The notes beneath the pieces were generated by a model. It saw nothing but the letters and a program-made list of their open reading frames with translations, did not search any database and was not told where the DNA came from. This document shows positions 9,171 through 43,524 of a stretch of DNA of 64,000 nucleotides, in pieces. Positions within the stretch are counted from its first letter, which is position 1; each line of letters begins with the position of its first letter. Origin of the DNA: Tetracentron sinense (lineage: Eukaryota > Streptophyta > Magnoliopsida > Trochodendrales > Trochodendraceae); assembly GCA_015143295.1 (NCBI GenBank), contig CM026567.1:13286416-13350415 (forward strand). Reading direction: 5' to 3'. Both the position numbers and the translations under genes were made by a program.

Positions 9171-9430
9171 GAGGACTTTCTATGTGGAATTGTTCCTAAA
9201 CCAACTCCGAGGCCCTAACAATCACCTTTTTTTTTTTGTAATGTCGGGTGTCCCAACCTTGACAAGAAAGGACTAGTACTTTCGGATGCACGCACTCACC
9301 CACAAACACTGCATCAGATAAGCCCGAGAGGAGTTGAGCTCGAGACCGTGGCCTAACAATTATCTTGCTAAGGGCTTATGTGATCATGATGAACAGAAAG
9401 GGTTTGGAGATGGTCATATATTAAAACTCT
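8762..9430 (-). mobile_element. L1-type LINE fragment, reverse transcriptase C-terminal part
   Basis: The minus strand encodes the last part of a plant LINE ORF2 reverse transcriptase. Successive pieces match a 'LSHLLF.DDTLLF' catalytic motif (here FVDD, 9130-9160), then KYLGLPL, then RLEGCKSIYLL and LPTYYLSLFSF from the thumb region. The frame changes at least twice between 9129 and 8762. The upstream part (9170-9430) reads toward a conserved 'EALSKIIVRASELV' region and is split by a SINE at 9227-9351. This copy keeps a segment that the paralogous copy at 42.6-43.3 kb has lost. Confidence 0.7.
9227..9351 (-). mobile_element. 5'-truncated SINE, minus strand
   Basis: Starts with an 11-base T tract (the A tail on the minus strand) and is flanked by the near-repeat CCTAACAAT at 9214-9222 and 9352-9360. 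The minus-strand body shares blocks with the SINE at 47069-47260, including ACTAGTCCT / ATTAGTCCT and GGTTGGGACACC / GGTTGGGGACACC just before the tail. It is inserted in the LINE fragment at 8762-9430. Confidence 0.6.
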
Positions 9431-12935: not shown

Positions 12936-14507
12936 TTGAGTGTCGGGTTAGGCACGCTCCAAAACCATCATCTTGTTGACTCTGATGGAGGGGTAGGTGA
13001 AAAGGATCAGCCTTTGCAGCTCTTGGGCAGTGAGCTTGACCTCCATTTAATGCATGTTCTTGGTTCTTTGTCACCTAGCATTAATGAGGACAGCTCTCAT
13101 TTGGTGGCCGTGGCAGCAAAGCCTTGCCTTGTGCCTAATGATGAGTGCCCCTCTCAGGCACGTGTGGCACCTGTTGGGTTGGACCTACCTATGGGACAAA
13201 AACCACAAGGGTGTTGTGAGGGCAGATCGGCTACAACTTGTTGGAATACTCTATGGAGGACCCTTTCTGGAAGCACCTCCCTTCCTATTGCTGGGACAAC
13301 TCTTGAATATACCAAGCTAGATATTCGAGATGGTAAGCTATTTATCCAATGGTCTGAAGTGGAACTTGAACAAGACTTGCTCCGTGGAGTAATACCTTGG
13401 TGGGGTTCTTTCTCGGTCCAAAACCATCTTATTATGTCATAAAAAATATAGTAGCCAGGTTGTGGAAACTGAAAGGTGAAGTGCAGGTTATTGGCCTTGA
13501 CTTTGGCTTCTACCTATTCAAGCTTAGCTGTCCGGAGGACAAAGCTATGATTCTAGATGGTGGCCCATGGCGAATCCGTCAAACCATGTTGGTGCTTCGC
13601 GAATGGAATAGAAGTATCAAACTAGATAAGGTTGAATTTTCTGACATCCCTATATGGGTAAAAATTTTCAATCTCCCACTATTCATGTGGAACTCCAAGT
13701 ATCTTGGTTTCATTGCGAGCTTGATAGGCAAACTGCTAACTACGGACCAACCAACTCTTGCATTAAAAAGGCTTAACTATGCTAGACTCTCCATAGAGGT
13801 AACCGCGGATCAAGAACTACTTGACAAACTAACCATCTTCGTCAATGGTAATGAGGACTACGTCCTTAAAGTGGAATACGATTGGAAACCCTCAAGATGT
13901 GCCAAATGCTGTACTTTTGGGCACCTAACGACAAAATGTTGCTCACTGCCAGAGGGTAAGCTTGGAGGACCTGAGGTAAGAAGTAATAATAGAGTGGAGA
14001 TCAGCCTTAGGGGGCATAATAGAAGTAGGAAGAGGCCATACAAGTCTTGGTGGGAATAGACTAGACCCTCCTCTACTGAAATTGGACAACCTAGTAGCAG
14101 AGTCTCACCTATCAGCCGGGGTAGTTCTGTTATGTCTCGTCCCGATAATGGAAATGACCCTAAACTTGTGGAATTTTTTTTTTGGAGGGTAAGCTGGGGT
14201 TAGGCGGACCCCGACCAAATTTAATGTTTTGAATGATGCAGTAGAATTATCTACTAATAGGGCTCTGGTGGACCCTAGTGCAAATGTTGACGAGAATGTT
14301 GAGGATCTTCAAAGGCTGCCAGAAGATGTGCCTCCTACCTCTACACCGTTAGCTCCTCCAAAGTATGCTGCTGGAATTGCTAAAGCCATGGAGCAGCAAT
14401 CGCTCAAAGGGAAATTGTGGATGACTGGGTTGAAACCTCAACGTATTGATAAGGAGACTTCTAGACCCCGCACTGATAAAGGCGGGGGTCTTAAACGTAG
14501 ACATTAG
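12936..14507 (+). pseudogene. LINE ORF1: DUF4283 and CCHC zinc-knuckle nucleic-acid-binding protein
   Basis: This is the LINE's RNA-binding ORF1. A first segment (12936-13442) holds a poorly conserved N-terminal region. The frame then shifts in the overlap 13397-13442. The second segment (13397-14059) has the DUF4283 core, with GLDFGFYLFKLSCPEDKAMI, LDGGPWRI, and then PIWVKIFNLPL. It is followed by the zinc knuckle CAKCCTFGHLTTKC (Cx2Cx4Hx4C, about 13898-13940). An in-frame TAG ends that segment at 14057-14059. A third segment (14229-14507) carries a hydrophilic C-terminal tail. A 41-bp LINE tail is inserted at 14177-14217. Confidence 0.8.
14177..14217 (-). mobile_element. Ultra-short LINE 3'-tail insertion (41 bp)
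   Basis: Starts with a T run and reads, on the minus strand, as the LINE 3' end (GGTCGGGGTCCGCCTAACCC...). It is flanked by AATTT at 14172-14176 and 14218-14222. Removing it restores uninterrupted reading of the surrounding LINE ORF1 tail. It is a retrotransposition event truncated to about 34 bases plus tail. Confidence 0.6.
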
Positions 14508-18960: not shown

Positions 18961-19576
18961 AAAAAGAATGTTTTCAAGTCAAGACAAGCACACGATGATT
19001 TCAAGAGTTTTATCGGTTTTCTGTGATGCAAGCATGAAATATAATTGCTTTCTTTCCTATATGAGATAAATTGCTTCCTACTTTATATTGTTGTTGCTAT
19101 GTTATGGCTGTTGGTTAGTATTTGGTACCCGTTAAGTATTCCATGCTCAGTCGTATGTCTTACGTCGGCAGGTGATAGTGGAGCGGCTGCTCCTTTCGGC
19201 ATATGTGCTCCTGGCCCTTGGGTGGAGGAGTACATCGAGGAGATCCCTGCTGAGGAGCCTCATGTAAACGGTCACTATTCGGTGGTAGATTCTAAGTGAG
19301 AGATTGTGGGTGAGCTTGAGAGTTATATTCATGTATTTTGGCGGGCATGTCCGCACTTTCTTTTGTGGGTCATTTTGTACAAAAATTGGAACATGTATAT
19401 ATATAGCGGTTTGTTAGACATCCGCTGTGCCATGTTTGAGTATGTTTTTGCTATTTTGTCCTCTATTGTGTATGCTCCTTTTACTTTTGCAGGTTGGTTG
19501 CCAAGCAAGTCATGTAGGTCATGACAAGTCGTCCAAGATTCACTCTAACTCCTAGGGTGGGTTTTGGGTCGCGACA

Positions 19577-21104
19577 TGGGAGATTGCCTCTAAGGATGAT
19601 TCCCTATGGGTTGCTTGGTTTCGGGATAGATACCTTAATTAAGAAGAAGTCTATTTGGACTATGAAAATGCTAGCTTTGCCATCTTGGAGTGTTCGGAGT
19701 ATTTTGAAGACTAGACCACTAGCTGAGGGTGCTATTCAACATTTAGTTGGTGATGGTCTCTCCACTAGGCTTTGGCTTGATCATTGGCATCCTAGAGGTG
19801 TTTTACTAAAGGAATGTAGAGCTCCAGCTTCTTATATTCACGGTATTGATAGAACAGCTTTAGTTGCTTCTATTCGGCAAGATAATGGATGGATTCTCCA
19901 AACCCCTCGCCTTCCTGAGTTGATTGACGTGTGGGAAGAGATCCGCAACATCCAATTGCTGGGTGAGTGTGTCGACTGTATTTTTTGGACACCATCTATT
20001 AATGGCATATTCTCATTAAAATCTGCTTGGAATCGCATCAAGTCATCTAATATCAATGTTCGTTGAGCTAATCTTCTTTGGCATTCCCATGCTATTCCTA
20101 AACATTCGATTATTACTTGGATGGCTATTCACCATGCCCTATCCACTAAGGACAAGCTCTTTCGGTTGGGGATTGTTGGCAATGCCCAATGCATCCTATG
20201 CCGCTCAGCTCTAGAAATCCATGACCATATTTTTGTCTCTAGCCCTTATTCTTCAGTTATCTGGGCTCGAATTGCTAGACACATCCGGATGCCAGTTCGC
20301 CAGTTTCTTGATTGGAATGATATGATTCGCTCTCTGACTAGGTATTGTAAAGTGAACCGTATCAAAGGGCACATTCAAAAATCTTTTTTTTGTGCTTTTA
20401 TCTATCATGTTTGGATCGAGAGGAATAACAGGACCTTTCGCAATGAGTTCCACCCTTCTAGCAAAATACATAGGAAAATCATTGATGATGTTCTGATTCG
20501 GCTTAGTAAGGAAAAGCTGGCTGTTGAAGATAATGCTGATAACAGAGAAACTATTGAATCCTTTGGTATCCAGCCCCATTGGACTTTGGCTCCTGCTCGT
20601 TGGGTCTCTTGGGTCCTGCCAAGGGATGGGCACTTTAAGTTGAATACTGATGGATTAGCTAAACAGGGGCATAGTGGCTATGGTTTTATTCTTCGGGACG
20701 CTATGGGAAGTACGATATATGCTTTAGCTGGTGGGCATCCAGAACAAACCGTTATTTACATCGAGCTATATGCTATTCGACGAGGCCTTGAGATTGCTCG
20801 CAACTTAGGAATTCAGCATATCTGGATTGAATCTGACTCCACCTGGGCCATTATGTGTGTCAAAAGAAAATGTGTTTGGCCATGGGAGTGCTCCTTTATC
20901 CTAGCTGATATAGATAGGATACTTCGAAACTTCGATGCTTGGGATATTAGCCACACTTCGCAGGAAGCAAACAAAGCTGCAGACTTCTTATCTAAATTTT
21001 GTCCCTCCTTGGGGGAAATATCATTAATTCCTCCGGTGTTTCCATTGGGTTTATCTCATATCATGTCTATGGACTCTATGGGTCATAGATATATGCAAAT
21101 GTAA
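19577..21104 (+). pseudogene. LINE ORF2 C-terminal part with RNase H domain
   Basis: It continues the LINE after the nested LTR with WEIASKDDSLWVAWF (19577 onward), WTMKMLALPSWSVRSIL, and a zinc-binding-like connector around CILCRSALEIHDHIF (about 20180). The RNase H domain (about 20635-21000) keeps all four acidic positions expected of RVT_3-type domains: D in LNTDGLA, E in YIELYAI, D in IESDS and D in KAADFLSKF. RNase H removes the RNA strand during reverse transcription. The frame stops at TAA 19639-19641, changes near 20064, then runs open from 20121 to 21104, giving a 327-codon intact stretch. Confidence 0.85.
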
Positions 21105-22353: not shown

Positions 22354-23058
22354 TGTCGACACAAATTTTGTGTCCGAAAATCAAGGATAAGAAATGTATG
22401 ACAAATAATATTTTTATTGATATTGGTGAGGATACAAATCTCTGAGATTTAATCTCTGTAAAATAGAGAAACCTCTGATTCTTTTCTTTACAAAACCTTT
22501 AATCTGAGGGCTGGAAAACAACGTATTCTCAGATCCGAACTTCGAGATCGTAGTCGAAAATATTGCCGAAGTATTTGGATCTTAACGGAGATCTTCGGAG
22601 CTTCAAACTGTAATGAAGATCTACGGAGCTCCAAGCTTTAATGGAGATCTACGGAGCTTTCAACTTTGATTGAGATCTGTGGAGCTTCAGGCTTTAATCG
22701 AGATCAGAGCTTTAGACTTTGGTGGGGATTTTTGGAGCTTCAGGGCTTTTTTTTCTTCTCCTCTTTTCTCTCCTTTTTCATCCCCTTTCTTCTAGAGAAT
22801 GAGCTACCTTTTATAAATTTATGAGTGGTAGAGTCCTCTTTTAACCCAACATCTTGGGAGACTTATCATGATTTGAATTGATAAGTCTTGTGAGGCTAGT
22901 GGATTACATTTGGAGTCTATCCAATTTGTGGGTCCTATTTGGTGAAAGCTAGCCTTTATCTTTAAAGAGTTTTATATTATTTTAACTCTAAATAGGGTCC
23001 ACCTTCTAAGATCTTTCCATGTGGCAATTTTGATCTTATCAAAATTTGCATGCCTACA
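22354..23058 (-). repeat. 3' LTR of the Tat element
   Basis: Plus-strand ends TGTCGACAC and GCCTACA. It contains degenerate tandem units of about 30 bp with the core GGAGATCT(A/T)CGGAGCTT (about 22570-22750). It has one unit fewer than the partner LTR at 36598-37332, which explains most of the length difference (705 versus 735 bp). Confidence 0.92.
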
Positions 23059-23060
23059 AA

Positions 23061-23070
23061 TGCCCCCTCG
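23061..23070 (-). other. Polypurine tract of the Tat element
   Basis: The minus strand reads CGAGGGGGCA two bases before the 3' LTR. This is the expected primer site for plus-strand DNA synthesis. Confidence 0.7.
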
Positions 23071-25179
23071 AGACTTGATTGCACACACAACTATATAGTG
23101 TGTCATGTGAATGGGGCTCGAATTTTGAAGGTGAATGATTGACATCAGCACATCCATTCTTGAGTACAAAGGCCTCTCAACTTGTTTCTCATACTCGTTT
23201 CTTTTTGAGGTGCTTGATGTGGCTTTATGATTGTCTTCTTCAAGGCTTTAAGCTTGGTCCAAAGAAGCAAACAATTTTTTTTTTTAGTCCAACGAGTGGT
23301 GAAGTCTTCAGGCCAGTCATTCATGCCGAATTGGCGTTCTCATAGAATTATGATCCCATCTCTCATGACTCACGTGGCTTTTAGTTCTTCTAGCCACAAC
23401 CAATTTCTTTGAAAGGAAGACTCCTTTTAAGCAAAAGAATTTATTTCTATTTTCTTTATTGGACCCGCCCACCATAAGACTATGAAATCAGTCTTCTTTT
23501 AACACGCAACTATCACCAAAGTACATTGGGTGTTGGGTTATCCACTTTCGGAAAGGAAAAGAAATCCTTTTAAACCTCTAATAGCTTTTGGATAGACTAT
23601 GGTAGAACGTGATGGGTTAGGAGAGTTCATTAGCCTTCTATATAAACCCTTTACTATCACTTTCTTTTTCTTAGTTAGAAAGGCTAAGTCATCTTTTGGG
23701 AAAATGCAAAGCTGCGGTCCTCTCCAAGAAAGGCTGAAGCTGCTGTCCTCTTCAAGAAAGACTGTTTTATTCTTCAATCATCTTCAAGAAAGGTAAGTCC
23801 CTTATTTTCTTCTTCTTTTTGGCATAGGACTGGCCCCTTTTTTGGGCTGTTGTTGTTTCTTTGCATCAAGTAAAAGAGGAATATGGGGGTATCTATCAAC
23901 TTCTCTTGGCTCTGCTCTTTGCTGTCACCAATGGTAAGGGAGTATGCATCATCTCAACCTTAAAGGAGACCTTGATCCTCTTCTTTTGGTATGTCGCTAG
24001 CCATGCCGTAGCCCTTGAGAGTTTCTGAGAGAGAGAGAGAGAGAGAGAGAGTACAGATCTAGATCTCTCCCTAGAATATGCTGAGAGACCCCTATCTCTC
24101 CCTTTTTTTTTTTCTTTTTTTTTTTTTCTGTCCTCTCTCCAAACCATGAGAGATTGAGAGAGAGATCCCTCCTCCTCTCTTTCGGCCTGTACCCTCCTCT
24201 CTTTGATGTCGTCCACCCTTTTTTAGAGTTTATCCGAGAGAGAGAGAGAAGGACCAAAGGTCCAAGAACGGTGATGCACCACACCTTCTCTTGTTGCTGT
24301 CCCCGGAAGAGATGAAGACTAGAGAGAGACCTATGTAGAAAGTCTCTCCCTCTCACCGTCTGCCCTACCAAGAGAGTAAAGAATATAGAGTGAGAATAAA
24401 AATTTCCCCTACCCCTTTTGTTTACTGTGGCCAGAAAGAAGACCCAGAGAGACTTCTAAGAAGTGAGGCGTTGTCACCTCTTTCTTTTTTTTTTAGAAAC
24501 CGGGAGCCTGCCATCTCTTCCCTTTTATCTAGTATTTTTTTTTTTTGTACGTGGAACATCCAGAGTCACAGAGAGGGACCAACTTTCGGCATCATGCTTC
24601 CATCTTGAAAATAAGAGGGAGTTTAGTATGTACAGAAGCACTTACAGGAACCATAACAGGTAAGGGCGTTAATGCAGCCACCATTCCTAGTTAAAGTGTC
24701 ACACTTTCCTTCACAGAGGTACATCGGAGAAATACTCTTGATTCTTGGTTGTTGTACCGAGCTTGAAGAGAACCTTCGTGGTGACACAACTTTGACTGGG
24801 TTAACGCCTCAACTTTGACTGGGGTAACGCCTCAATGCTGATTTGTCTTCATCTGTTGACCCCACTGGTAATTGGGAACTTACCTAATATATTTTAGTGG
24901 TGGCACAATTTGGAATGGGGTAACGCCTCAACTTTGACTGGGGTAACGCCTCAACGCTGATTTGTCTTCATTTGTTGACCCCACTGGTAATTGGGAATTT
25001 GCCTAATATACCTTAGTGGTGGTATGATCAAGAACTTGATGATACATCAACGCAACTTTGCCGAAAAAGAATACATTTTTTTTTTTTTGACAGGTTTTAT
25101 CTTGAACTTTTACAGCAAACTTGGTTGCATATTGCTCTGTTGGTTGGTCTTTTCCCGATCATTCTCTCTTTGAGGACAG
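23071..25179 (+). promoter_or_regulatory. Upstream region of the antisense PMD gene
   Basis: Two kilobases without a supported frame. It contains a GA microsatellite (24027-24050), a long pyrimidine tract (24095-24130), and a 119-bp tandem duplication with the core AACTTTGACTGGGGTAACG (copies starting 24811 and 24930). A polypyrimidine-AG (TTTTTTTGACAG, ending 25093) looks like a splice acceptor. It is probably promoter plus spliced leader of the plus-strand gene. Confidence 0.4.
24790..25025 (+). repeat. 119-bp tandem duplication in the Tat element
   Basis: Two head-to-tail copies containing GGGTAACGCCTCAA, TGATTTGTCTTCAT and GTTGACCCCACTGGTAATTG, about 93% alike. Confidence 0.85.
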
Positions 25180-25251
25180 GTATATATATATATATATATT
25201 TTTGAATCTATATATACCTCAAATAGACCATCATATTTTTTTATTTTATAG
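25180..25251 (+). other. Candidate leader intron of the antisense PMD gene
   Basis: Donor GAGGACAG/GTATAT at 25180 and acceptor TTTTATAG at 25251, AT-rich between. The ATG follows five bases after the acceptor. Inferred from splice-site consensus and base composition only. Confidence 0.45.
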
Positions 25252-25256
25252 GTTTG

Positions 25257-27953
25257 ATGGATAAATTTTCTATTTCTCAAATCCCAAAGCACGAGATAGT
25301 GCGCACATGTCAAGGTGCTCGGGTAGCTATCACTTCTTCTGAAGAGTATCCCTTTTTTTCTAAAGATGAAAGCAAGGAGCAGCCAATTTTATTAATTCGT
25401 GAGGGTGAGCATGAAGAGGAATGTAACGCAACCCGTTGCCATTATCATACAGCAGTCATCGGGTGTTGTGCAAAAGATTGGGTCCTGGATAATGAAAATC
25501 CATATTTCTTGCAGAATTGGACTAAAATGGAGAAACATGACATGATTATCAGCGGGTATCATGATCCTATACGAAAGTCTTTGAGGAAAGTGCTGATGCT
25601 CCAATCCTCCCATCATGAGCAAATTCATAGCTCGGGTGTACTTCCGACATTGGGCCATCGCATCACGAATCAAGAGACTAATTGGAGAGGAGATTTTTCG
25701 CTTCAAGGGAAGATGTTCTTCATCCCAGGATATTGGGAATGGGCTGAACTTATGTTAACCCGAAATAAGGACATTCTAGAAAAATCAGGGGTATATGATG
25801 CAATCCTCGCATCATTATTTTTATATAATCATAATGTTGATTTGATTCGCTCTTTTTGTGAGGCTTGGTGTCCAATCACAAATTCGCTTCATACACCGCA
25901 AGGGGAGATGTCTTTATCCTTATGGGATCTGAAAATTATTGGGGGATTGCCAATCACAGGGGAATTTTATGATGAGGTGGTACCTAGCCTAAAGGAGATA
26001 ACTGACCTTGATGAGAAGCTTACACCCGTCCTTCCCTTCAGTTGCAGATTTCTTTTTCTCGCGTATCATTGGGTTAGGCAGAGCAACCTTTCATCAGGAG
26101 TTACATCTCATCACTCAGTAAGCCTTTCTTCCTGGATAACTTGGTGGTTTCGAGGCGATTTACAATACCATATTTCCAATTCTAAGCAGACATTTTTTAA
26201 GAATGCTAAAGCGAGACAACAATATCCTTCTGGAAAATTTCCTTATCGATGCCGAACATCTAAAGAAGATTCGGTCTTTCACGATCTCGGGGTTTCTTCT
26301 AGAGATGAAGATGAAGTTTTACTTGCAGCCTTCTTATCTACTTGGTTATGTATGTTTGTGATGCCAAACAACCATCGCTCTTGTATCCGCCCTGCTACTT
26401 TCAAAGTAGCGAGTCTTATGACTCAAGGATTAAAATTCAGCCTAGCTATCCCAGTTCTTGCTAGTATTTACAATGGATTGAATATTATAGCGACTCATAA
26501 GGATGGACCTGACTTATGCCATGTGACTTTCCCTTGGCATTATATATTCGCCTGGCTGGGGTTATACTTCAACACTTATAGCATCTCCAAGACTGCTCCA
26601 ATGAAACCATATATGTGTTCTATCAGAGGACCCGCTCGGAAGAGATTTTATACTACAAGTAGTAGTCGTGAAGCACTTCGAAATTGCAAAAACGTGATTT
26701 GGTATTCCACTAGACCAAAATATATTGATAGTGTAATATTCAGGGAGGAACCGAATCGCCTAATGAGTGAATACGACTTTGAATATCTCATAAGTATTCG
26801 TTCTTGTTATTTGACGCTAAGAAGAGAAAGGCACTATATAGTAGAACCTTACAGTCCTCATCGTTTTGCAAGACAGTTTGGATATTGTCAAGACCTACCC
26901 AGCAGGTTGAAAGAAGACATCAGAGAGAAAACTTTGAAAAATCTAGTATATCTTTGGAAATGCAGTGTTTTTAGAGGCTCATCTTCTGAATTCACCATGC
27001 CTCAATGGAAGGGGACTGACAAAGATATCTTTGTGTCTCAAGCTTTTTTCAATTGGTGGGCCAGTAATACTAGTGAGTATTTCAAATACAGTTTGAGTGT
27101 GTTGAACTATATGAACAAGATGGATGTCATCCTTACAGCACCTAGTCAACCGCAAAGTGAGCCAGCATTAGTAATTATTCCAGCCGTTGAGGGTTCGAAT
27201 AGCACGGGACACGAAATTGATGACAATACTTCAGACACACATTCTCAAAACTATACTGCAAATGACATCAAGGGAACACGCATTTCTGGTTCAAATCCGC
27301 TAGGTTCTTCTGACATAGTTGTGAAGACCCTCCTAAGTGTTCTTTTGAGTGGGAGCAAGAGATCAAGTTCCGAGGCAGTAGAAGAGACAAAGGTCGTGAA
27401 GAATGGTGTTGGTAACCATAGTGACCCTGATTCTGATCGTTGTAATTTTAGAAGACAGAAAAAGAATAACAACGATCCTCCTGTAAAGAAGAAGAGAACA
27501 TCCCGTAAGAAAGGCGAATCAACAAAAGTGGCCTTACCAGTTGTAAGAAGCCGAGAACGTCTTCCAGAAATTCGACAGTCTTCTATAATACCACCCACAG
27601 CTCCCAAATTTACTGACGGTCTGTTAGATGAGCCTGTATTGGTTGATATAGTACAATCTGCCAATGAGACTTCTATTGGGGATGAAGGCCAAATCCGTCG
27701 AGGGGCAAGACAGTTGCTTGAGCGTCGAATCTCTACAGAGAAGGTAGTGGTTGCACCGATGCCTATCCCTTTAAAAGCTGACGTAAATACAACTCAATTG
27801 GACATAGGTACTTTTGAGGTAAATATCACATCCCTTTTTTATAGTAAACTATTTTATCCAAAATTTAGTGGACAAATAAGTGATCTTTATTTATGTTTTG
27901 TAGGTTGCCCCATCTCTTCCATACTATCACAGTTCAATTATTGCACAGGCTGA
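25257..27953 (+). CDS. Plant mobile domain (PMD, MAIN/MAIL-like) protein encoded antisense in a Tat retrotransposon
   Basis: An uninterrupted frame of nearly 900 codons on the strand opposite gag-pol. I take ATG at 25257, right after a probable acceptor. Residues about 155-640 resemble the PMD ('aminotransferase-like') domain: WEWAELMLTRNKDILEKSGV (about 160), SLWDLKIIGGLPITG (about 221-235), then FRFLFLAYHWV-type and WYSTRPKYIDSVIF segments. Beyond it is a low-complexity acidic/serine region. A lysine-arginine cluster (VKKKRTSRKKGES, about residue 745) looks like a nuclear signal. In Arabidopsis, PMD proteins MAIN and MAIL1 act in the nucleus in transposon silencing and genome stability; the role here is unknown. 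Antisense extra ORFs are known in Tat elements. The intact frame contrasts with the decayed gag-pol beside it. A plant-like intron probably interrupts its 3' end (27819-27903). Confidence 0.75.
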   Translation: MDKFSISQIPKHEIVRTCQGARVAITSSEEYPFFSKDESKEQPILLIREGEHEEECNATRCHYHTAVIGCCAKDWVLDNENPYFLQNWTKMEKHDMIISGYHDPIRKSLRKVLMLQSSHHEQIHSSGVLPTLGHRITNQETNWRGDFSLQGKMFFIPGYWEWAELMLTRNKDILEKSGVYDAILASLFLYNHNVDLIRSFCEAWCPITNSLHTPQGEMSLSLWDLKIIGGLPITGEFYDEVVPSLKEITDLDEKLTPVLPFSCRFLFLAYHWVRQSNLSSGVTSHHSVSLSSWITWWFRGDLQYHISNSKQTFFKNAKARQQYPSGKFPYRCRTSKEDSVFHDLGVSSRDEDEVLLAAFLSTWLCMFVMPNNHRSCIRPATFKVASLMTQGLKFSLAIPVLASIYNGLNIIATHKDGPDLCHVTFPWHYIFAWLGLYFNTYSISKTAPMKPYMCSIRGPARKRFYTTSSSREALRNCKNVIWYSTRPKYIDSVIFREEPNRLMSEYDFEYLISIRSCYLTLRRERHYIVEPYSPHRFARQFGYCQDLPSRLKEDIREKTLKNLVYLWKCSVFRGSSSEFTMPQWKGTDKDIFVSQAFFNWWASNTSEYFKYSLSVLNYMNKMDVILTAPSQPQSEPALVIIPAVEGSNSTGHEIDDNTSDTHSQNYTANDIKGTRISGSNPLGSSDIVVKTLLSVLLSGSKRSSSEAVEETKVVKNGVGNHSDPDSDRCNFRRQKKNNNDPPVKKKRTSRKKGESTKVALPVVRSRERLPEIRQSSIIPPTAPKFTDGLLDEPVLVDIVQSANETSIGDEGQIRRGARQLLERRISTEKVVVAPMPIPLKADVNTTQLDIGTFEVNITSLFYSKLFYPKFSGQISDLYLCFVGCPISSILSQFNYCTG
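27819..27903 (+). other. Candidate intron near the 3' end of the PMD frame
   Basis: Donor TTTTGAG/GTAAAT and acceptor TTTTGTAG, 85 bp, strongly T/A-rich, typical of plant introns. Coding-like sequence resumes immediately after it. RNA evidence would be needed. Confidence 0.5.
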
Positions 27954-28065
27954 CGAGAGATCCAAATGTGGCTTTCCCACCAAAGAGATTACAGCTACCC
28001 CATCATTTTCAATATATCAAATAGGGAGGATCGCTTCTGATGTTTTTGCTACAGCTGTTAAAAGC

Positions 28066-28647
28066 ATGGGACATGCTTTGTTGACAAAGCTTAAAGCTGC
28101 TCCTTTTGATCGTGTTCTTCGAGTGCAAGATGATGCTTTAGATGTCTATTCTAGTATTACTCATCTCAAAGGTAACTCAGCTCCCCTGAAAGAACTAGTG
28201 GATTCTTATGCAGAGGATGTCAAAGCTTATCTTCAACAAGAGGCTTCTTTATTGAATGGCATCCCTTTGAGTGAGTGGGCCAAATTAAAAGCCAGTACAG
28301 CAAAGAAAATAGATGTTACTTCATCTTATTTGGCTTTGGCACAACAACATCTTACTGATTGTTCGGGAGAGTTGGAGATAGTCATGGCGAGACAGGTCTC
28401 TCTTGAAAATGAGTTGCGAATCATGCAAGAGAAAGAGTCATGCTTGAGAAGAGATGTAGCTACCAAAGAAATAGATGTGCAGGTTGCTGAACTGGAGGTT
28501 AAATCAGCCCAAAAGGCATGCGAAGACATGGAATCAGTGGTACCTGTTTCAACTGCAGAGGTAGAGAATCTTCAAGACCTTCGAAAGATGGTAGAGGATC
28601 GCAGAAACTCAATCAAACCTTCTGACTGGATGGATGAAATACTTTAG
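28066..28647 (+). CDS. Coiled-coil segment downstream of the PMD frame, probably its last exon
   Basis: A 193-codon frame on the same strand as the PMD gene, preceded by about 160 bp of coding-like sequence after the candidate intron acceptor at 27903. It is rich in Leu, Glu, Lys, Gln and Ala, with heptad-like spacing between about residues 85 and 170 (SLENELRIMQEKESCLRRDV), suggesting a coiled coil. It ends with KPSDWMDEIL and a stop. It may be the C-terminal exon of the PMD gene or a separate short gene. No function is assigned beyond possible oligomerisation. Confidence 0.5.
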   Translation: MGHALLTKLKAAPFDRVLRVQDDALDVYSSITHLKGNSAPLKELVDSYAEDVKAYLQQEASLLNGIPLSEWAKLKASTAKKIDVTSSYLALAQQHLTDCSGELEIVMARQVSLENELRIMQEKESCLRRDVATKEIDVQVAELEVKSAQKACEDMESVVPVSTAEVENLQDLRKMVEDRRNSIKPSDWMDEIL

Positions 28648-29060
28648 ATTTTTTTTTTGCAAATAGTTTATACTCTTGATAGAAGGATATTGTTTAAATC
28701 AAATGCTTCAGAATATGCATGCTAAATTTAAACTCATGTGTCAAGAGTATATAATTTTTTTTTTTTTTTATAGACCGAACCTGAGGTAACTTTACAGGCT
28801 GCCTACGTACCCTCATGTGGGATCAGGTCTTTACGTAGTTCGATAGGAGCTCTAAGTTTTTGCCTAGACTACCTTTTCAAGTTTAATCTAGCAAGCGATT
28901 TTCATTACATTTTATACTCGTATCAGGGAGTTAGAATAGATAATTTATGCTCTTATCAAGGAGCAGTGTAGACACTTTAGACTCTTATCAAGGAGTGGTG
29001 TAGACACTTTAGGCTTTTATCAAGGAGCGGGTATAGACGATCTTTAGGCATAATACCTCT
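28648..29060. other. Spacer between antisense gene and integrase, with tandem repeats and a CTACGTA motif
   Basis: Contains the segment GGCTGCCTACGTACCC...CAGGTC...ACGTAGTTC (28798-28842), related to a segment in the Ogre-like LTRs. It also holds three good and one weaker copy of a 32-bp unit with the core TATCAAGGAG.GG.GTAGAC (28911-29048). Confidence 0.6.
28911..29048 (+). repeat. 32-bp tandem repeats (3-4 copies)
   Basis: The unit CTCTTATCAAGGAG(C/T)GGTGTAGACACTTTAGA recurs at about 28950, 28981 and 29013. A diverged copy with GTATCAGGGAG precedes them. Confidence 0.8.
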
Positions 29061-29091
29061 TTAAGAACTTGTCATTGATAGGGGCAAGTCT

Positions 29092-30150
29092 CTAACCATC
29101 TTGAGTAACGAGCTTGTATGCGCCATTGGAGTAGACTTCTTGAACAACATAAGGACCATCCCACTTTGAGATGAACTTTCCTCCGGTACGGTGAGAGATG
29201 ATGATGGGTCTTTGCACGGCCAAGACCAAATCTCCTTGTTGGAAAGAACGTGGACGAACTTTCTTGTTGAAGGCTCTACAAAGGCGAGCATGATAACACT
29301 CTAAGCGTTGCTGTGATTCAAGTCTTTTCTCATCTAGTGACTCCAATTCAGTGAGCCGCAACTGAGCATTTTGATCTTCAGTCAAGCCTTCTTGTATTGC
29401 AATCCGCAGTGATGGAATTTGACTTTCTAGCGGGAGGATGGCCTCCACACCATAAACCAAGGAATATGGAGTAGCCTGAGTCGGCATCCGGTAAGTTGTT
29501 CGGTATGCCCAAAGAGCTTCTCCCATCCTTTCATGCCAATCTTTCTTTGATTTTGAGACAACTTTCTTCAACAATTTACACAGAGTCTTGTTGAATGCTT
29601 CAGCTAAACCATTGGCTGGGGCATTGTACATAGTAGAACGCCGTTGTTTGATATTGAACTTTTCACAGAACTTATCCATAAGACTGTTACAGAAGGGCAT
29701 TCCATTGTCAGTCACAATGCAACGAGGTATGCCATACCTGTATACAATGTGGGTACGTATGAAGTCAACGACAGTTTCTTTCTTCACTTCCTTAAAATAG
29801 CTTCAGCCCACTTGGAGAAGTAGTCGGTAGCCGCCAAAATGTAGAGATGATTTCCTGAAGACTTAGGGGTGAGGGGTCCAACAACATCAAGTCCCCATGC
29901 GTCGAATGGCCAAGATGCCACTGTGGGATGTAGTGGCTCAGGCGGTTGGTGTATGAAATCAGCATGGAACTGACATGCTTGACATCTTTTAGCATATTCC
30001 ATAGAGTCTCGAACCATTGTGGGCCAGTAATACCCCATTCTCTTCACTTGGCAATGGAGTTTGGGTCTTAACTGGTGAGCACCACAGATACCAGAATGAG
30101 CTTTCTCAAGAGCTTCTAGGCCTTCTTGTTCTCCCAAGCATCGGAGGAAT
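29092..30150 (-). pseudogene. Integrase of the Tat element
   Basis: The zinc-binding N-terminal region (AHSGICGAHQ ... CQACQ) is followed by the DDE core beginning DAWGLDVVGPLTP and continuing with DNGMPF and the E-bearing region, then the C-terminal GPYVVQEVYSNGAYKL tail. It lies at the 3' end of pol, as in all Ty3/gypsy elements. Fossil; not intact as part of pol. Confidence 0.85.
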
Positions 30151-31346
30151 AGACCATCGTAAGAACGGTGATATAAAACATTTTTATAATAAATGAACCG
30201 AGGCGCTCGGTGCCGTATTTCCGTTCTATGCCTTAGATCATCAGGTAGCTTTCCATGTTGCAAGAATGCAATCAATGGATCTCGCCAATCTTCCTTTTCC
30301 ACTTCAAAGACTGATATGGAGTTGGCACCTTCGACTTTTTCTGGGAGAATGGATTTTATCACTCGTCTTTGGCAAACAGGTATTGTGATAGACCCTTGTT
30401 TTGGTAGAGCCAAAGTGGATGCAAGATTAGCGAGTGCATCTGCCTGTTTATTATCTTTCCTAGGAACATACTCTAGAGTAATATCATCAAATTGTTTCAT
30501 CAGACTAGTGGCATATTGAGAGTAAGGGATCAAATCCGGCTTTTTGACATCGTAATGTGTCAAGAGTTGGTTGATTATTAACTTGGAATCGCCAAACACA
30601 CTCAACTGTAAGACATTTATGTCAAGGGCAATCTCAAGCCCAATGATTAGAGCTTGGTACTCAGCTACATTATTTGAGTAGAGTTGGGTGAACGCAAAGG
30701 AGTAGGGAAGCACTTCATTTTCTGGTGTGATGAACACAACTCCAGCACCCGCTCCATCATGACGAGCTGCTCCGTCAAAAAACATTCTCCATGGTGGAAC
30801 AACTTCAATGAAAAAAACTTCTTCATCGGGAAAGTCTTCAAATAATTCCCAACTTCTTGGTATAGGGTGATCAACTAAGAAATCAGCTAATGCCTGCCCC
30901 TTAATGGCCTTTTGAGGAACATAGACAATTTCAAATTCTGAAAGTAAGAGAGCCCACTTGGCTAAACGTCCGGAAAGTACCGGTCTAGACATGATATATT
31001 TGATCGGATCCGCCCGTGAGATAAGTCGAACTGTATGGGCAAGTAAGTAGTGCCTAAGCTTCTGGATAGCAAAGATCATGGCTAAACATGTCTTCTCTAT
31101 GGGTGTGTAGTTCAATTCTGCTCCAACCAACGTTCGACTCAAGTAGTATAATGCATTTTCCTTACCATTTTCATTAATCTGGGCAAGTAATGCCCCTAAG
31201 GATCGTTCTTGTGCAGCAATGTAGAGGATTAGCGGTTGTCCCGAAATGGGTGCTGTCAGGACTGGTGGTTTCAAAAGATAGGTCTTGATGCTTTTGAACG
31301 CATTACTACAAGCTTCATCCCACTCGAAAGGAACATCCTTCTTCAT
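30150..31346 (-). pseudogene. RNase H plus archaeal-like RNase H of the Tat element
   Basis: A standard Ty3/gypsy RNase H (PLILYIAAQERSLGALLAQI ... YTPIEKTCLAMIFAIQKLRHY) is followed by a second, distinct RNase H (WRMFFDGAARHDGAGAGVVF ... AEYQALIIGLEIAL ... KQADALANLAS). The tandem arrangement is diagnostic of the Tat lineage. Confidence 0.85.
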
Positions 31347-31349
31347 AAG

Positions 31350-32328
31350 CTGACTAAAGGGCTGACATCGTCCTACTAAGTTGGAGATGAATCTTCGGAT
31401 CTAGGCCAAACGACCTTGTAAACTTTTGAGTTCATGCAAATTCCGAGGTTCTGGCATTTTTTGAATGGCATCAATTTTGGACTGATCGATTTCAATAGCG
31501 CGGTGTCAGACAATAAATCCAAGAAACTTGCCTGAAGTAACCCCAAACGTACACTTCAAAGGGTTCATCTTCAACTAGTATCTTCGAAGTCTGTCAAACA
31601 CCTTCCTTAAATCTTGAAGATGGTCTTCTCTTTTCTTAGTCTTCACCACCAAATCATCAACATAGCATTCTATTAGCTTGTGAAGCATGTCATCAAATAT
31701 TTTCTACATAGCACGTTGATATGTTGCCCCTGCATTTTTTAAACCAAAAGGCATGACTCTATAAGTAGATACCTTTGGGGGTGCGAAAAGCAGTAAGTTT
31801 TTCATCTCTTGGAGCCATTCGAATTTGGTTATAGCCAGACGAGCCATCCATAAAGGACAAGACTTCGTATCCTGTGGTGGCATCAACCATGAGTTCAGTG
31901 ATAGGAAGTGGGAAGTCATCCTTCGGGCATGCCTCATTGAGGTCACGAAAATCTACACAAACTCGAATTTGTCCATTTTTCTTTCTCATGGGGACAATAT
32001 TGGCGAGCCATGTTGGGTATTTGACTTCTCGAATGAATCCAGCTTCAATGAGCTTGTTGACTTCAATTTCAATTTGTGGAACCAATTCGGGCCTGAAACG
32101 ACGCTGAGCTTGCTTTATTGAACGTACACCATGCTTGACAGCCAGATGATGAACTGCTACTTTTGGATCAAGACCCGACATTTCTTTGTAGGACCAGGCA
32201 AAAATATCTTTATACTCAAGTAACAAGTCAAAGTATTTTTTCTCTTCTTCTGGCGTCAAAAATGCACTTACAAAGATGGGGCAAGGGTCTTCTGGTGTAC
32301 CGAGGTTAAGTTCTTTTAATTCATCCAC
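31350..32328 (-). pseudogene. Reverse transcriptase of the Tat element
   Basis: Ty3/gypsy reverse transcriptase with WLANIVPMRKKNGQIRVCVD, FRDLNEACPKDDFPLP, DGSSGYNQIRM and the TFRTPKG-type finger motif, then YRVMPFGLKNAGATYQRAM. It lies between protease and RNase H. The frame is interrupted; the fossil is not described further. Confidence 0.85.
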
Positions 32329-32334
32329 CGTGGC

Positions 32335-33586
32335 CTATCCACCTCCCTCAAATGTAGGTGGAGCATCTTGTATCTCATCCTCAGTAAGATCTTCATCTAA
32401 TAATTCCTTCACTGTTATATGGTTAGTAGAAGCTACACTTTCCTGATCAATAGCATCATGAAGCTCTCGGCTTTGTAAGCTATGCTGATTTGTAAACACA
32501 ATGGTGTGTTGCTTAGCTTTGAGAAAGTTCTCAATTGTTACGACCAAGTTCACTTGTCGTTTCATACGTGACAAAATTATGTCTTTTGACTCTTCAGGGG
32601 CTTTTGAGGCACTATGCTTGTCTCTCCTTTGAACATACTTTATCTTCTTGGAACTACGAATTCTTTGAGAATGTCTCAAATTATTTGACTTGGTGATAAT
32701 TCCATTTGTATTAGTGTCCACTTGAGTTCCTAATCTTTTGAAAACAGAGACTCGTGAAGTTGGTCGACTAATTCGATCAAATACAGATGTTTTTGCAACA
32801 GGGACACAATCTTCATCCACTGATTGTGCAGTGATGTATTGGGTATTGGCCTTTCTTGAAGATATGCGAACTGGTGGGGGTGGGCTATAGCTGACTCCAT
32901 CTTTGAAGCTTTTCACTGCATAACCTTTTCCCTTCAACTTTTGTTGAGTTCTATTTAGCCCGTGAACATTTTCTCCCGTAGTCTCACATGAGAGTTTCCC
33001 TAAAGGAGGTGGATCTTTATAGTCATATCCTGCCTTAGCAAGGAGCTTATAAGCATTAGGATCAAAACCCTCTTCGGTCCTCTGTTAGTAGAGAGTCATG
33101 CTCAATCTCAGGACCCTGTGATGGTCTCACAAACCCTTTAAGAGGTGGTTTGGAGATTGTTGATGAAATAAGCTTAGTGATAGGAAAAGTCAAACCATTT
33201 AATGCTTTCAGATCTGTACTAGTACATCCGATAAAAGGAGATTGCCCTCCTTTTCTTTGTGAACATGGCACATACCGAAGAACTGGCATTGTCTTTGAGA
33301 CTTCAAGGGTACTTTGAGGCTTCTCATCTTTATTTGAGGTGACCTGCTTATTCTCGCTATTATTTTCTTTCTTCTCAGGCTCGATCTCATCACTTAAATC
33401 TTGTACTACTTTTTCATTTTGAGAACTTGATTTCCCAGTTGATGGAATTACTGCAGGTTTAAATTCTTTCACCAAATCAGATTCCACGTAAAACTTAGCA
33501 TCAGCAAAATGAGACTCAACTTCAAAGAATGGCTTTTCATCAGCTATCACTTTTTTCTGTGACCATCTCGAAAAAACTTGAAGCAC
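32335..33586 (-). pseudogene. Protease-RT linker region of the Tat element
   Basis: Hydrophilic, Ser/Lys/Glu-rich coding-like sequence between protease and reverse transcriptase, with no recognised domain. Long linkers at this place are usual in Tat elements. Confidence 0.55.
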
Positions 33587-34062
33587 TGATGGAGTGTAGA
33601 TAGAACTACACCATGTTCATGGAGCCATGGTCTTCCAAGTAACATGTTGTAGGAGGTTTTTGCATCAATGACATGGAAAAGAGCACTCCAACATAAATCT
33701 CCAATCACGAGATCGAGGCGGATCATGCCAATAGCTCTTTGCCCCTCTTGATTGAAGCCTTGAATCATTAGACGACTATGAGATAGCTCGTAATTTGTAA
33801 TCCCAATTTCCTTCATAATTTGAATAGGCATGATATTTACAGCAGACCCACAATCAAGAAGAATACGGTTGACCTTGTGCTCACGAGCATACCCAGCTAC
33901 GAAAAGTGGACGATTATGTGGTTTTGAGCCTAACAATAGATCTTCATCTAAGAAGGCGATTGTCGTCATGCATACAGCACAAGTATTTGTGTAATTTTCT
34001 GACACATTAACTTGTTCAACCTTAGATGTGTAATCTTCCGGATTTGTAAGCGCAAAGGCCAT
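33547..34062 (-). pseudogene. Aspartic protease of the Tat element
   Basis: Retropepsin-like segment around NRILLDCGSAVNIMP with flanking hydrophobic strands (LMIQGFNQEGQRAIGMIRLD) and MLLGRPWLH at the end, the usual layout of plant Ty3/gypsy proteases. Confidence 0.75.
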
Positions 34063-34331
34063 GGCTTGCCGAACTTCTGGTGAAAGTCGTAGCGCATCAT
34101 ATACACTTAGCCAATTTGAGACTTTCTGTAAATGTGCAAGGACATTAGGATGGGCAGGATCTTCGTGACTTTCTTGAAATGTTGTCGATGTAGCATGTAC
34201 TTTACCTGTATCATCTGGACAACCTTTTCATCATGTGTCTCTAGACATGATATTACATGAACATTGACACAATACTTGTTAAGCCATTTTTTGGACATGA
34301 ACTCTTTCAGGGTAACAGGAACACGAGGTTC

Positions 34332-36524
34332 TTATTCAAGCAGGTCATCAAGTATTAGTGGTCTTTCTTTGACAATCTTGCTCTTCCTTCCAGACTTCTT
34401 CTTCTTCTTTGATGCAGCTTTTGGTTGAGCCTTTCTCCGAGTCCTTCTTGACCTAGTAATTTGAGGCTTTGGCAACCGTGGCTTGCGTTGCTTGTGACGA
34501 GTAACAAGGGTCCAACCATCATCCTCAGAGTCTGCATTCTCAGTTAAATCGATGCCCACATACATAATTGTTTGATTTGTCAATCTTGTAGAAGGTTCTG
34601 GAAGACTTAGACTTGGTTTCCTATTCTCTATTATGATTGGATTGAATGACCCAAACTTAAGAGTGTATGTTGGAGAATGCAACAAGACATGAGGAGAAAC
34701 AGTACAGGTCTTTGGCTTACTTATAGGAACCGTAGAGCCAAATGATCCAAAAGCAATGACAGTCTGATTTGAAGCCGCAATATCGTCGTCTCCATCAAGG
34801 ACTATTTTCCCTTGTCGTGCCAGTGCCATAATCTTTTCTTTTAGAACAAAACATTTTTCAATTGGGTGGCTAACCACCCGATGGTATCTGCAGTATTTTG
34901 GATCATCTATCTGGTCAGCCTCTTCTGGGCGTTTCGACTCCGGTAGTTCAATCATCTTACTTGTGAGGAGTTGGTCAAACATTCCTGCGGCATCAGAGTC
35001 AGGGAAAGGGTACTCCTTTTCTTGCATTTCTTTCAAGGTATACCTCTTTCTACCTCGGTTTTCAAAAGACTCATTTTTACTTTCCTTATTGTTGCTTGAT
35101 TTTCCTTTAATTTTTAGAGGAGTAGTATTAACAGCCATAGACTCTTTAGTACCAGATTTAGAAAATGGTTTGCCCCCTTTTCGGTTGTCTGGTTTATCTT
35201 TATTTCTGTGAGAATTATGGGTAGATGGATCCAAATTTCCATTAGCTGCTATGCTCAATTCCATATCATGAGCACGTGTGGCCAATTCTTCAAAAGTTCT
35301 CGGTTTTATCCCTTGTAGGATATATCGAAGTCCCCAGTGCATACCTTGGATACACATTTCGATGGCAGAAGTCTCACAAAGTCTGTCTTTGCAATTGAGA
35401 CTTAAATTTCTCCACCTGTTGATGTAGTCAATAACAGGTTCTTCCTTCCATTGACGGGTATTTGTCAACTCGATCATACTAACTGTACGTCTCGTGCTGT
35501 AAAAATGATTAAGAAATTCTCGTTCCATTTGTTCCCAATTATCAATGGAACCAAGTTCGAGATCAGTGTACCAGTCGAATGCATTTGCTTTCAGAGAGCG
35601 AACAAATTGCTTGACCAAAAGGTCGGCATTAGTACCGGCATTGCTACATGTCTCTACGAAGTGTGCCACATGTTGTTTTGGGTTACCTTTTCCATCAAAT
35701 TGCTGAAACTTTGGTGGATGATAACTGGCAGGCATCTTCATTAGGTCGATCCTCTGAGTGTAAGGCTTGGCATATGCAATGGAGGATTGTGATTGATCTT
35801 CATGCTTACCCCGTATGGCATCTAAGATAAAGCCTCTGAGTTGATCTGCAGGTATGGATCCATCAGAAGATATTCGAATATTTTCATTTGTACTTTGATC
35901 TTTAGTCGGTATCTTAGGATTATCCTCTGGGTCTGTATGACCTTGGCTTGATTCTTCATCATTCTCAAACTTATTCATGAGCATGACTATTTGTTTGTCT
36001 TTTTCATTAAGTGCATTGGTGAGCCCTTCAATGGCTTTAGACATACTCGCAATTTGTTCATCAATGGAGAGGCCTTGTGCCATCATAACTGGAGCAACAG
36101 AATACTCGGTATTAATAGAGTTCGAGTGTCCTGAAGATCCTGAGCTTCTTTGTGGAGATCCAGGTGTAGAGCCTGTGTTCGAACTATAAGCAGACGAAAC
36201 TTTATGCTCGGAGCTTGATTCATGAAATAAAGAAGAGTAAACCATGTTCTTCTTCTTAGAAAAGGAGGCCTCCCTTTTCTCCTTTAGCGAGGCTAAAGTG
36301 ATGACGGGAAGTCTGGATGAGACTGCTCTAGGAACCGACAATGGTTTTGGTGAGAGAGCAGTTGGTTGGGTCGACGAGCCCAGACGAACGGCTAGCGTTT
36401 TACTTCGGGTCGTACATCCCGTATTCTGAGTGTTGAGACTTGATCCAACATTGCTGGCAGCCATAGGGTTAGAACCTATGGGCTTGAGGCTTGGAATGTT
36501 GGACGATTTTTTCTTTGGTGCCAT
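34332..36524 (-). pseudogene. Gag of the Tat element
   Basis: A long frame whose natural start is probably the ATG at 36522-36524 (MAPKKKSSN), just inside the primer-binding site. The retrotransposon gag core lies in the middle: [40 protein letters not shown], then [19 protein letters not shown] and [12 protein letters not shown]. The C-terminal part is basic. Structural protein of the particle in this family. Confidence 0.85.
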
Positions 36525-36573
36525 TGACTTCGAATCTCGAGGAGTTGCAGAAAAGAGATGATAGGTAGAGATA

Positions 36574-36591
36574 GTCCCACCGGGCGTGCCA
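36574..36591 (-). other. Primer-binding site of the Tat element
   Basis: The minus strand reads TGGCACGCCCGGTGGGAC a few bases after the 5' LTR end, a primer-site type common in Tat elements. I do not assign the tRNA. Confidence 0.7.
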
Positions 36592-36597
36592 GAAATT

Positions 36598-37332
36598 TGT
36601 CGACACAAATTTCGTGTCCGAAAATCAAGGATAAGAAATGTATGACAAATAATATTTTTATTGATATTGGTGAGGATACAAATCTCTGAGATTTAATCTC
36701 TGTAAAATAGAGAAACCTCTGATTCTTTTCTTTACAAAACCTTTAATCTGAGGGCTGGAAAACAGCGTATTCTCAAATCCGAACTTCGAGATCGTAGTCG
36801 AAAATATTGCTGAAGTATTTGGATCATAACGGAGATCTTCAGAGCTTTGGTTTTAATGGAGATCTTCGGAGCTTCAAACTATAATGGAGATCTGCGGAGC
36901 TCCAAGCTTTAATGGAGATCTACGGAGCTTTCGACTTTGATTGAGATCTGTGGAGCTTCAGGCTTTAATCGAGATCAGAGCTTTCGACTTTGGTGGAGAT
37001 TTTTGGAGCTTCAGGGCTTTTTTTTCTTCTTCTCCTCTATTCTCTCCTTTTTCATCCCCTTTCTTCTAGAGAATGAGCTACCTTTTATAAATTTATGAGT
37101 GGTAGAGTCCTCTTTTAACACAACATCTTGGGAGACTTATCATGATTTGAATTGATAAGTCTTGTGAGGCTAGTGGATTACATTTGGAGTCTATCCAATT
37201 TGTGGGTCCCATTTGGTGAAAGCTAGCCTTTATCTTTAAAGAGTTTTATATTATTTTAACTCTAAATAGGGTCCACCTTCTAAGATCTTGCCATGTGGCA
37301 ATTTTGATCTTATCAAAATTTGCATGCCTACA
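36598..37332 (-). repeat. 5' LTR of the Tat element
   Basis: Partner of 22354-23058. It differs by roughly 16 substitutions, one 3-bp difference and one extra unit of about 30 bp in the GGAGATCT-type tandem region (36808-37020). Confidence 0.92.
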
Positions 37333-42015: not shown

Positions 42016-42975
42016 CTGATCTCCATGGAGACGTTTAGGCTTTCTTAACATCCATTCTCATGTGAGCCACATGCTTCTTAAATCTAGTGATACCCCCACA
42101 ATTATCTTGAGACAGTGTTTGCACAACCTATCCTTATTCAGTCTCTCTCCGTGCTCCAACCAATATTGAAGGACTATCTTGGCTTGATTAAGTACAAAAA
42201 ATTATTAAAATAATAATGAAACAAATGTGACAATGTTAAACACTTAAGATTGAGAATGAAAAAAATTGACTGATAATAATCTAAAAGAAAAATGAATTGT
42301 TTGGTTATTTTAATAAATATAATTATGAATTATTTAAACTAACATAAATAATGATTAGTCTATGGGTCCCATAGACAAGTCTCATATAAATATTTGAAAC
42401 ATAAATAAATAATAAGTAGCTTAAAATCTTTAAAGTTATATTCGAATTATAATTTTTGATATTAAAAAATTAAATAAATAATTTATTATCCAGAAAAAGG
42501 GATTGAGATCTAGTAGATCACCTTTCAAGCACAAGTGAGTGGTATATGTGTATTAAAATGCATTTGACCGGAAGGAGAAAAGGGAAAGATAATAGGTTGG
42601 AAGGCAATAGATAGTGCTTTTCAAGAGGGTTAACGTCCTACCTTGCAATAGATAGATGGACTTACAACCCTCTAGCCTCTTGATAAACCTGTAGACCAAT
42701 GGCTCCCAAATCGAAAAAGCTTTGAAGTGAGCCCCTAAAGGAGTAAAGGTAGACCCAAGTATTTGGCTAGAAGGGACGCAATTTTGCAACCTAGACACAT
42801 GGCTAGCACCTTTAGATTGATAACCTCTTCTATAACAAAGATCTGACTTATGAGAAAGTTAATTCTCAACCTAGACATTTCCTCAAAACATTTAAATAGA
42901 CAAGGAAGCCCTAAAAACAAGAGGGTGTCATCCAAAAATAGGAGATGGGACAGTTGGACAAGAGGACTTTCTTCC
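42016..42975 (-). repeat. Dispersed repeat block, copy 2 (LINE 3' region)
   Basis: Co-linear with 8225-9170, including an AT-rich segment (42190-42540) and the LINE reverse-transcriptase C-terminus. The differences are scattered point changes and single-base indels. Confidence 0.7.
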
Positions 42976-43349
42976 AATTTAATAGCTACTCGTGGAGTCC
43001 CTTTTAAGAGGTGATAATTATGGCACAACAAAATATTGTCCCATATACGTCTACCTTTGATGAAAGTGGACTGGCTTTGGTTTATGATCACAGGCATAAC
43101 CTGTTGAAGCCGAGCAACCATAATGTTGGAAATGAACTGATATACTACATTGCACACGGAGATGGGCCGAAAATCCGAAAAGGAGTTTGAACTTTCTGAT
43201 TTGGGAATAAGCGATATGAGCGTGGTGTGGCGTTCATCTCTCCAAGCATCTAGCCAGGACAAAGAAATTCTTAACCGCCTTAGCGAAATCATTTTTAACA
43301 ATCTCCCAACATTTCTGAAAGAAGAGAGCCGTAAAGCCGTCAGGGCTCG
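42553..43349 (-). mobile_element. L1-type LINE, 3' piece, minus strand
   Basis: Minus-strand reading from 43349: SPDGFTALFFQKCW-like start, then TTLISLIPKSESSNSFSDFR, PISVCNVVYQFISNIMVARL, STFIKGRRIWDNILLC and GTPRVAIKL. It then jumps directly to ESPLVQLSHLLFLDDTLLF, so the stretch holding motif A and GLRQGDP is missing. It continues into the thumb region shared with 8762-9130. Its 5' continuation is at 63634-64000, 20.3 kb away, because a solo LTR and its own inserts lie between. Confidence 0.78.
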
Positions 43350-43524
43350 GATAGAACCCCAAAATCCGAGTTCACTGTGATATGAATAGTACCAGTGAAT
43401 AGTGTCCTTGTATGATGTGTGTAAAGGCCTAAAGCCTTCTATTTTGTTCTTGGTAGTATGGTGAGCCAAGTGAGGGGTTTAGATGTGTGTGTTGAGTCTC
43501 AAAAAGAGAGTATAAATATACTCT

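Follow-up and report, generated by a model that had tools for sequence, protein, structure and literature searches.

Introduction

The PMD-A1 and PMD-A2 clades of the plant mobile domain (PMD) are encoded exclusively by Gypsy elements, and this across the angiosperms (Ikeda et al. 2017, PMC5418596). In the available part of that paper, domestication of the host genes from the Gypsy PMD is favoured, although the question is called fully open, and an anti-silencing role is raised as a speculation for PMD captured by Mutator-like elements (MULEs). Within the angiosperm Ogre/Retand group of the Tat clade, which is marked by the domain order RNase H, archaeal RNase H, integrase, a PMD has been reported for 57% of Ogre elements and Transposase_28 for 23% of Retand elements (Neumann et al. 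2019, PMC6317226). The PMD is also given as the commonest non-canonical domain in consensuses of plant long terminal repeat (LTR) elements, where it occurs in 10 species, or in 40 species without the n5 filter (Alvarado-Marchena et al. 2022, PMC9289625). Here we describe a PMD gene that lies antisense to gag-pol inside a Ty3/gypsy element of Tat type in Tetracentron sinense. The DNA analysed, referred to as the window, is a stretch of 64,000 nucleotides (assembly GCA_015143295.1, contig CM026567.1, 13,286,416 to 13,350,415), and all positions are counted from its first base.

Two further systems bear on such a gene. Retand clusters carry Transposase_28 in an antisense open reading frame (ORF) in 61/63 cases and have LTRs of 315-1194 bp (Vicient 2025, PMC11963269). 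Among host PMD proteins, MAIN and MAIL1 are needed for the expression of MORC1, and restoring MORC1 re-silences a subset of transposons; a sizeable fraction requires a MORC1-independent route, perhaps the complex directly (Jarry et al. 2023, PMC9899485).

Results and Discussion

An intact PMD gene opposite gag-pol

On the + strand, an ATG at 25257 opens a frame of 898 codons that runs unbroken, antisense to gag-pol, to a stop ending at 27953. It is situated between integrase and the 3′ LTR, in the 6.0-kb region that separates pol from that LTR. We consider it likely to be an antisense accessory gene typical of its lineage, the Ogre/Retand group of the angiosperm Tat clade (Ty3/gypsy). An earlier note on this DNA, made from the sequence without database searches, had reported an uninterrupted frame of nearly 900 codons (25257-27953) on the strand opposite gag-pol and had recognised PMD-like signatures in it. 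Both observations hold. A profile search of the predicted protein against PF10536, as the note had proposed, gave a match at residues 178-601 that covers profile positions 1-346 of 347 (E 2.9e-31; 109.4 bits against a cut-off of 34.9). The basic, nuclear-signal-like cluster that the note had also pointed out is found at about residues 732-752, and the antisense position inside a Tat-type element is borne out, with the PMD gene on the + strand and gag-pol on the - strand of an element spanning 22354-37332.

A chance origin of the frame was rejected. In 300 dinucleotide-matched simulations of the 6-kb region between pol and the LTR, the longest ORF in six frames had a median of 113 codons and a maximum of 191.

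A search of solved structures returned three matches at E 0.36-0.98, which were taken as chance, and an AlphaFold2 model of residues 1-628, built without an alignment, had a mean pLDDT of 32.5 and no usable fold. No relative was found in viral contigs, queried with the PMD protein, the RNase H-integrase frame, the reverse transcriptase (RT) frame and a PMD motif pattern, or in prokaryote genome contigs, queried with the PMD protein and the same pattern; as the collections scanned were of viruses and prokaryotes, this says nothing on plants.

The gene is most simply read as two exons

A second frame on the + strand starts exactly at 27904, the base following a predicted acceptor (the ORF as listed is 28066-28647). 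Most simply, the two frames would be two exons of a single gene. Under this model the final 44 of the 898 codons are intron and out-of-frame exon 2. The joined predicted protein has 1101 residues, with the PMD (178-601) preceded by an N-terminal region (1-177) and followed by a polar linker and the product of exon 2 (855-1101). Splice pairs were listed for donors at 27600-27952 and introns of 60-599 nt; since 287 GT-AG pairs keep the frame, frame-keeping by itself proves nothing. On a simple donor/acceptor score the chosen intron ties for first place among the 287 pairs with two longer introns that share its donor, and it gives the longest protein among the 14 pairs listed. A separate coiled-coil gene in place of exon 2 is the less simple alternative.

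The downstream coiled-coil segment of the earlier note survives in part: the open frame is real and is best read as exon 2, while a coiled coil within it is suggestive at best. The only Pfam match of the second frame is sub-threshold, to the coiled-coil family ATG16 (E 0.01-0.02). When heptad periodicity was scored in 75 windows of the protein, 925-980 (P 0.004) and 1037-1092 (P 0.019) were among the best five; about one or two of the 75 would be expected to reach P 0.02 by chance, and the best of all (P 0.001) lies within the PMD.

Upstream of the gene, the leader measures 2.2 kb from the 3′ LTR to the ATG. It contains donor-like sites at 23790 (AAG/GTAAGT) and 24657, and acceptor-like sites that end near 23827, 25093, 25179 and 25251. 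Nine TATA-type matches occur where 0.44 would be expected, but this excess carries little weight, since eight of them cluster in a TA repeat and the AT-rich sequence beside it (25181-25215). The layout of the leader, taken with maize Grande gene23, for which an own promoter and a nuclear product have been reported (PMC7264820), suggests that the PMD gene may have a promoter of its own near the 3′ LTR.

The host element

LTRs, a probable primer-binding site, a polypurine-like tract and a target-site duplication are all present (Table 1). The 5-bp duplication reads CTAAT to the left of 22354 and GTAAT to the right of 37332, with four of five bases the same. The order of Pfam domains is gag, protease, RT, RNase H, RVT_3, integrase. 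Matches in pol were to RVT_1, RT_RNaseH, RVT_3 and Integrase_H2C2, with gag-asp_proteas and rve below the cut-off; RT_RNaseH, RVT_3 and Integrase_H2C2 occur in that order in one frame. In our reading RVT_3 would be the archaeal-type RNase H, which would give the domain order of the Tat clade. Both the gag and the RNase H-integrase frames are still long.

Table 1. Coordinates of the element and of its predicted antisense gene in the window.
Feature	Position	Strand	Basis or remark
LTR retrotransposon, Ty3/gypsy Tat-type	22354-37332	-	LTR pair, probable primer-binding site, polypurine-like tract, target-site duplication
3′ LTR, 705 bp	22354..23058	-	pairs with 36598-37332; TG...CA ends
Polypurine-tract-like CTCGAGGGGGCATT	23059..23072	-	abuts 3′ LTR
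Candidate TATA box CTATATAAACC for antisense gene	23639..23645	+	sequence match
Tandem duplication, 119-bp unit, 2.1 copies	24772..25022	.	upstream of PMD start
PMD exon 1, 854 codons	25257..27818	+	N-terminal region, PMD 178-601, polar linker with basic cluster
Predicted intron, 85 nt, phase 0	27819..27903	+	GAG GTAAAT ... TTTTGTAG GT (cuts after GAG, before GT)
PMD exon 2, 247 codons and stop, possibly coiled coil	27904..28647	+	frame opens right after predicted acceptor
Tandem array, 32-bp unit, 3.8 copies	28907..29028	.	between PMD stop and pol end
pol, split over several frames	29092..34227	-	protease, RT, RNase H, second RNase H-like domain, integrase
gag frame, 730 codons open	34332..36524	-	Retrotrans_gag E 2.6e-11
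Probable primer-binding site TGGCACGCCCGGTGGGAC (TGG...)	36574..36591	-	6 nt inside 5′ LTR; sequence only
5′ LTR, 735 bp	36598..37332	-	pairs with 22354-23058

Aligned over 705 sites, the two LTRs differ by 16 substitutions (Kimura two-parameter distance 0.023) and by indels of 27 and 3 bp. Both hold a tandem array of 28-bp units (22582-22749 and 36831-37020). The 27-bp length difference falls inside this array, which therefore appears to change by about one unit. Substitution rates of 6.5e-9 to 1.3e-8 per site per year place the insertion at roughly 0.9-1.8 million years ago, and further back if the tree evolves slowly. The element had been called young in the earlier note, a description that can be kept in moderate form only, given 16 differences in 705 LTR sites and two indels.

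No second copy was present among the 60 longest self-matches of the window, those touching the element being the LTR pair and the 119-bp repeat; a tblastn search with the PMD protein that allowed E values as high as 1 matched only the gene itself. Scans of the window for tRNAs and Rfam families gave 0 and 0 matches.

Comparison with described elements

In common with the PMD-bearing Ogre elements of the Tat clade (PMC6317226, PMC5418596), as far as the available parts of these papers describe them, the element has a second RNase H between RNase H and integrase and an extra ORF matching PF10536, the latter a frequent (57%) rather than universal feature of Ogre. It differs from them in its LTRs of only ~0.7 kb. 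With the Retand elements that carry antisense TRP28 ORFs (PMC11963269) it shares a long region between pol and the 3′ LTR (6.0 kb here, 2.9-6.6 kb there), an antisense ORF, tandem repeats and an LTR size within their range, but it has a PMD in place of Transposase_28. PF04195 (Transposase_28) had no match in the PMD exons. The spacer has 20 further frames of at least 60 aa, of which 10 were scanned, also without a match, and the remaining 10 measure 60-92 aa; in the frames scanned there is thus no antisense Transposase_28 ORF of the kind found in Retand. Neither "PMD" nor "mobile domain" occurs in the main text of Vicient 2025 (PMC11963269).

Maize Grande gene23 likewise lies antisense between pol and the 3′ LTR. 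Its expression has been shown, whereas the present gene is known from sequence, and the available part of the Grande paper mentions no PMD for gene23 (PMC7264820). The host proteins MAIN and MAIL1 (PMD-C) have the PMD in common with our predicted protein and are genic rather than element-borne. VANDAL elements are DNA transposons, a different class of element; their VANC offers a precedent, on the part of that literature available, for an element gene that counters silencing, an action that is hypothetical here. The PMD of this gene is presumably of A type.

An origin from a nested MULE was considered and rejected. Three inverted pairs of at least 18 nt were found and none encloses the gene, though shorter or poorer repeats would escape such a search; the frames scanned gave no match to a transposase.

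Several points weigh against placing the gene so neatly among known accessory genes. The orientation of the PMD ORF in Ogre is not stated in the available part of PMC6317226, so that the antisense layout is already in print only for the extra ORFs of the group. LTRs of ~0.7 kb fit the Retand range (315-1194 bp) while the PMD points to Ogre, and the assignment to a PMD sub-clade and to the Ogre/Retand group is provisional. Splicing and promoter are predictions, with two other acceptors scoring equally. Finally, adding frameshifts at the rate seen in gag-pol to the nonsense changes would predict 3.5-3.9 disruptions of the PMD gene, and none was found (P 0.02-0.03), a mild hint of extra constraint.

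Decay of gag-pol and intactness of the PMD gene

A codon-scored path was traced through 36524-29095; the scores had been trained on the frames under study, among them the PMD exons. Three cost settings were used, and every one called 11 stops or frameshifts in these 7430 bp of gag-pol: two settings split the total into 6 stops and 5 frameshifts, the other into 4 stops and 7 frameshifts. The PMD gene shows 0 disruptions in 3303 bp. The decay of gag-pol in this copy, which the earlier note had set against the open PMD frame, is therefore substantiated. Random placement of the 11 disruptions over both regions would leave the PMD gene untouched with P 0.0175; leaving out events that may be natural, namely the stop at the gag/pol boundary and two in the protease-RT interval, 8 remain and P becomes 0.053. 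The divergence of the LTRs predicts 1.3-1.7 nonsense changes in the PMD gene over the time since insertion, and the probability of none is 0.19-0.27. No frameshift rate can be taken from the LTRs themselves, since both of their indels are multiples of three. Moreover, the PMD frame was picked out for being intact, so these P values overstate the evidence. What remains is a hint of constraint on the PMD gene after insertion, at P about 0.02-0.05, post hoc and from one copy. A single copy of moderate age that descended from a functional source would be expected to look much the same, with its frame still open.

The stops in gag-pol bear on when it died. At most 6 were called against 2.8-3.7 expected since insertion (P of at least 6, 0.06-0.17); this count fits decay after insertion and does not establish an earlier death. 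A non-autonomous line, whose source had a defective gag-pol from the start and whose copies moved with enzymes supplied by related elements, the PMD gene being retained, is unlikely, if the best placed of the alternatives. It would account for the slight surplus of stops, and it has a parallel in the defective clusters among recently active Retand ones, 10 of 63 (PMC11963269). However, the surplus is not significant, only 4 stops were called at one cost setting, and the gag and RNase H-integrase frames remain long.

We think it improbable that the PMD gene of this particular copy is under present selection, through takeover by the host in place or protection of some other kind. The contrast between 11 disruptions over the 7430 bp of gag-pol and 0 over the 3303 bp of the PMD gene (P 0.0175; 0.053 with 8) points that way, as does the combined nonsense and frameshift expectation (P 0.02-0.03), but this is a single copy noticed for its intactness, nonsense changes alone give P about 0.2, and both LTRs are still there.

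There is similarly little to suggest that the antisense transcript matters instead of the protein, forming double-stranded RNA (dsRNA) with genomic RNA and leading to small interfering RNA (siRNA) production. The antisense layout would allow it, 175 PHAS (phased-siRNA) loci lie at PMD genes of tea (PMC10673657, available in part), and a dsRNA/siRNA idea has been raised for antisense ORFs (PMC7264820, likewise); yet it leaves an open gene of ~1100 codons with a conserved domain unexplained. A role at the RNA level is possible in addition to that of the protein.

Least probable of all is recent capture of a host MAIN/MAIL-type gene, the "modified host silencing factor" that the earlier note saw as cargo: it could draw on the PMD homology and on a predicted intron that might pass as a host-gene trait, but Gypsy-only PMD-A clades already extend across the angiosperms (PMC5418596) and a PMD is reported for 57% of Ogre (PMC6317226), and with PMD extra ORFs thus published for this group, a recently taken host factor is unlikely.

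A proposed role for the gene

As a lineage-typical accessory gene, the PMD gene would be kept by selection at the level of the element, copies with a working PMD gene having left more descendants. Such selection would act across successful copies and not on this insertion: each new copy would begin intact and then decay. The frame of the present copy would be intact because that of its source was intact and too little time has passed since. Consensus sites suggest one gene of two exons, encoding 1101 residues and driven by its own promoter near the 3′ LTR. Its product is probably nuclear, judging from the basic cluster, kinship to MAIN and MAIL1 and the example of Grande. Like MAIN and MAIL1, it would probably affect transcription or chromatin, here in favour of the element.

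The action of the protein is the least supported step of this explanation. It may aid expression of the element, blunt host silencing or limit copy number; the first two are favoured, because a gene kept in so many elements should pay its way. A more specific scheme, in which a spliced, nuclear PMD protein of 1101 residues, made from the element's antisense promoter, would interfere with the host MAIN/MAIL1-PP7L-MORC1 pathway to the benefit of the element family and copies with dead gag-pol would serve as trans-acting helpers, is a long shot.

Other features of the window

A repeat of ~958 bp occurs in two copies (8225-9181 and 42016-42972) that are 96% identical, the second overlapping the C-terminal end of a - strand frame at 42735-43469 (RVT_1, E 5.6e-8). 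Two regions have the look of long interspersed nuclear elements (LINEs; plant non-LTR), one at 13397-14059 (DUF4283, E 8.9e-29) and one at 20121-21104 (zf-RVT, E 2.8e-7; RVT_3, E 9.4e-17); between them, the frame at 19521-20066 had no Pfam match at 0.01. A tandem array of ~0.7 kb at 49014-49727 shows self-match offsets in multiples of ~24.5 bp (73 bp and up). On the - strand, 55006-55611 matches RVT_1 (E 6.6e-20) and 53065-53814 looks by eye like a gypsy integrase, with no Pfam match at 0.01; together they are probably another decayed Ty3/gypsy element.

Significance

PMD accessory genes of this class of element were already known, and what is added here is a well-described member. Gypsy PMD genes are widespread, and the related genes of the host have a part in the silencing of transposons. 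With its full gene model, candidate promoter and candidate nuclear signal, this copy provides a construct with which help of silencing by such genes could be told from hindrance.

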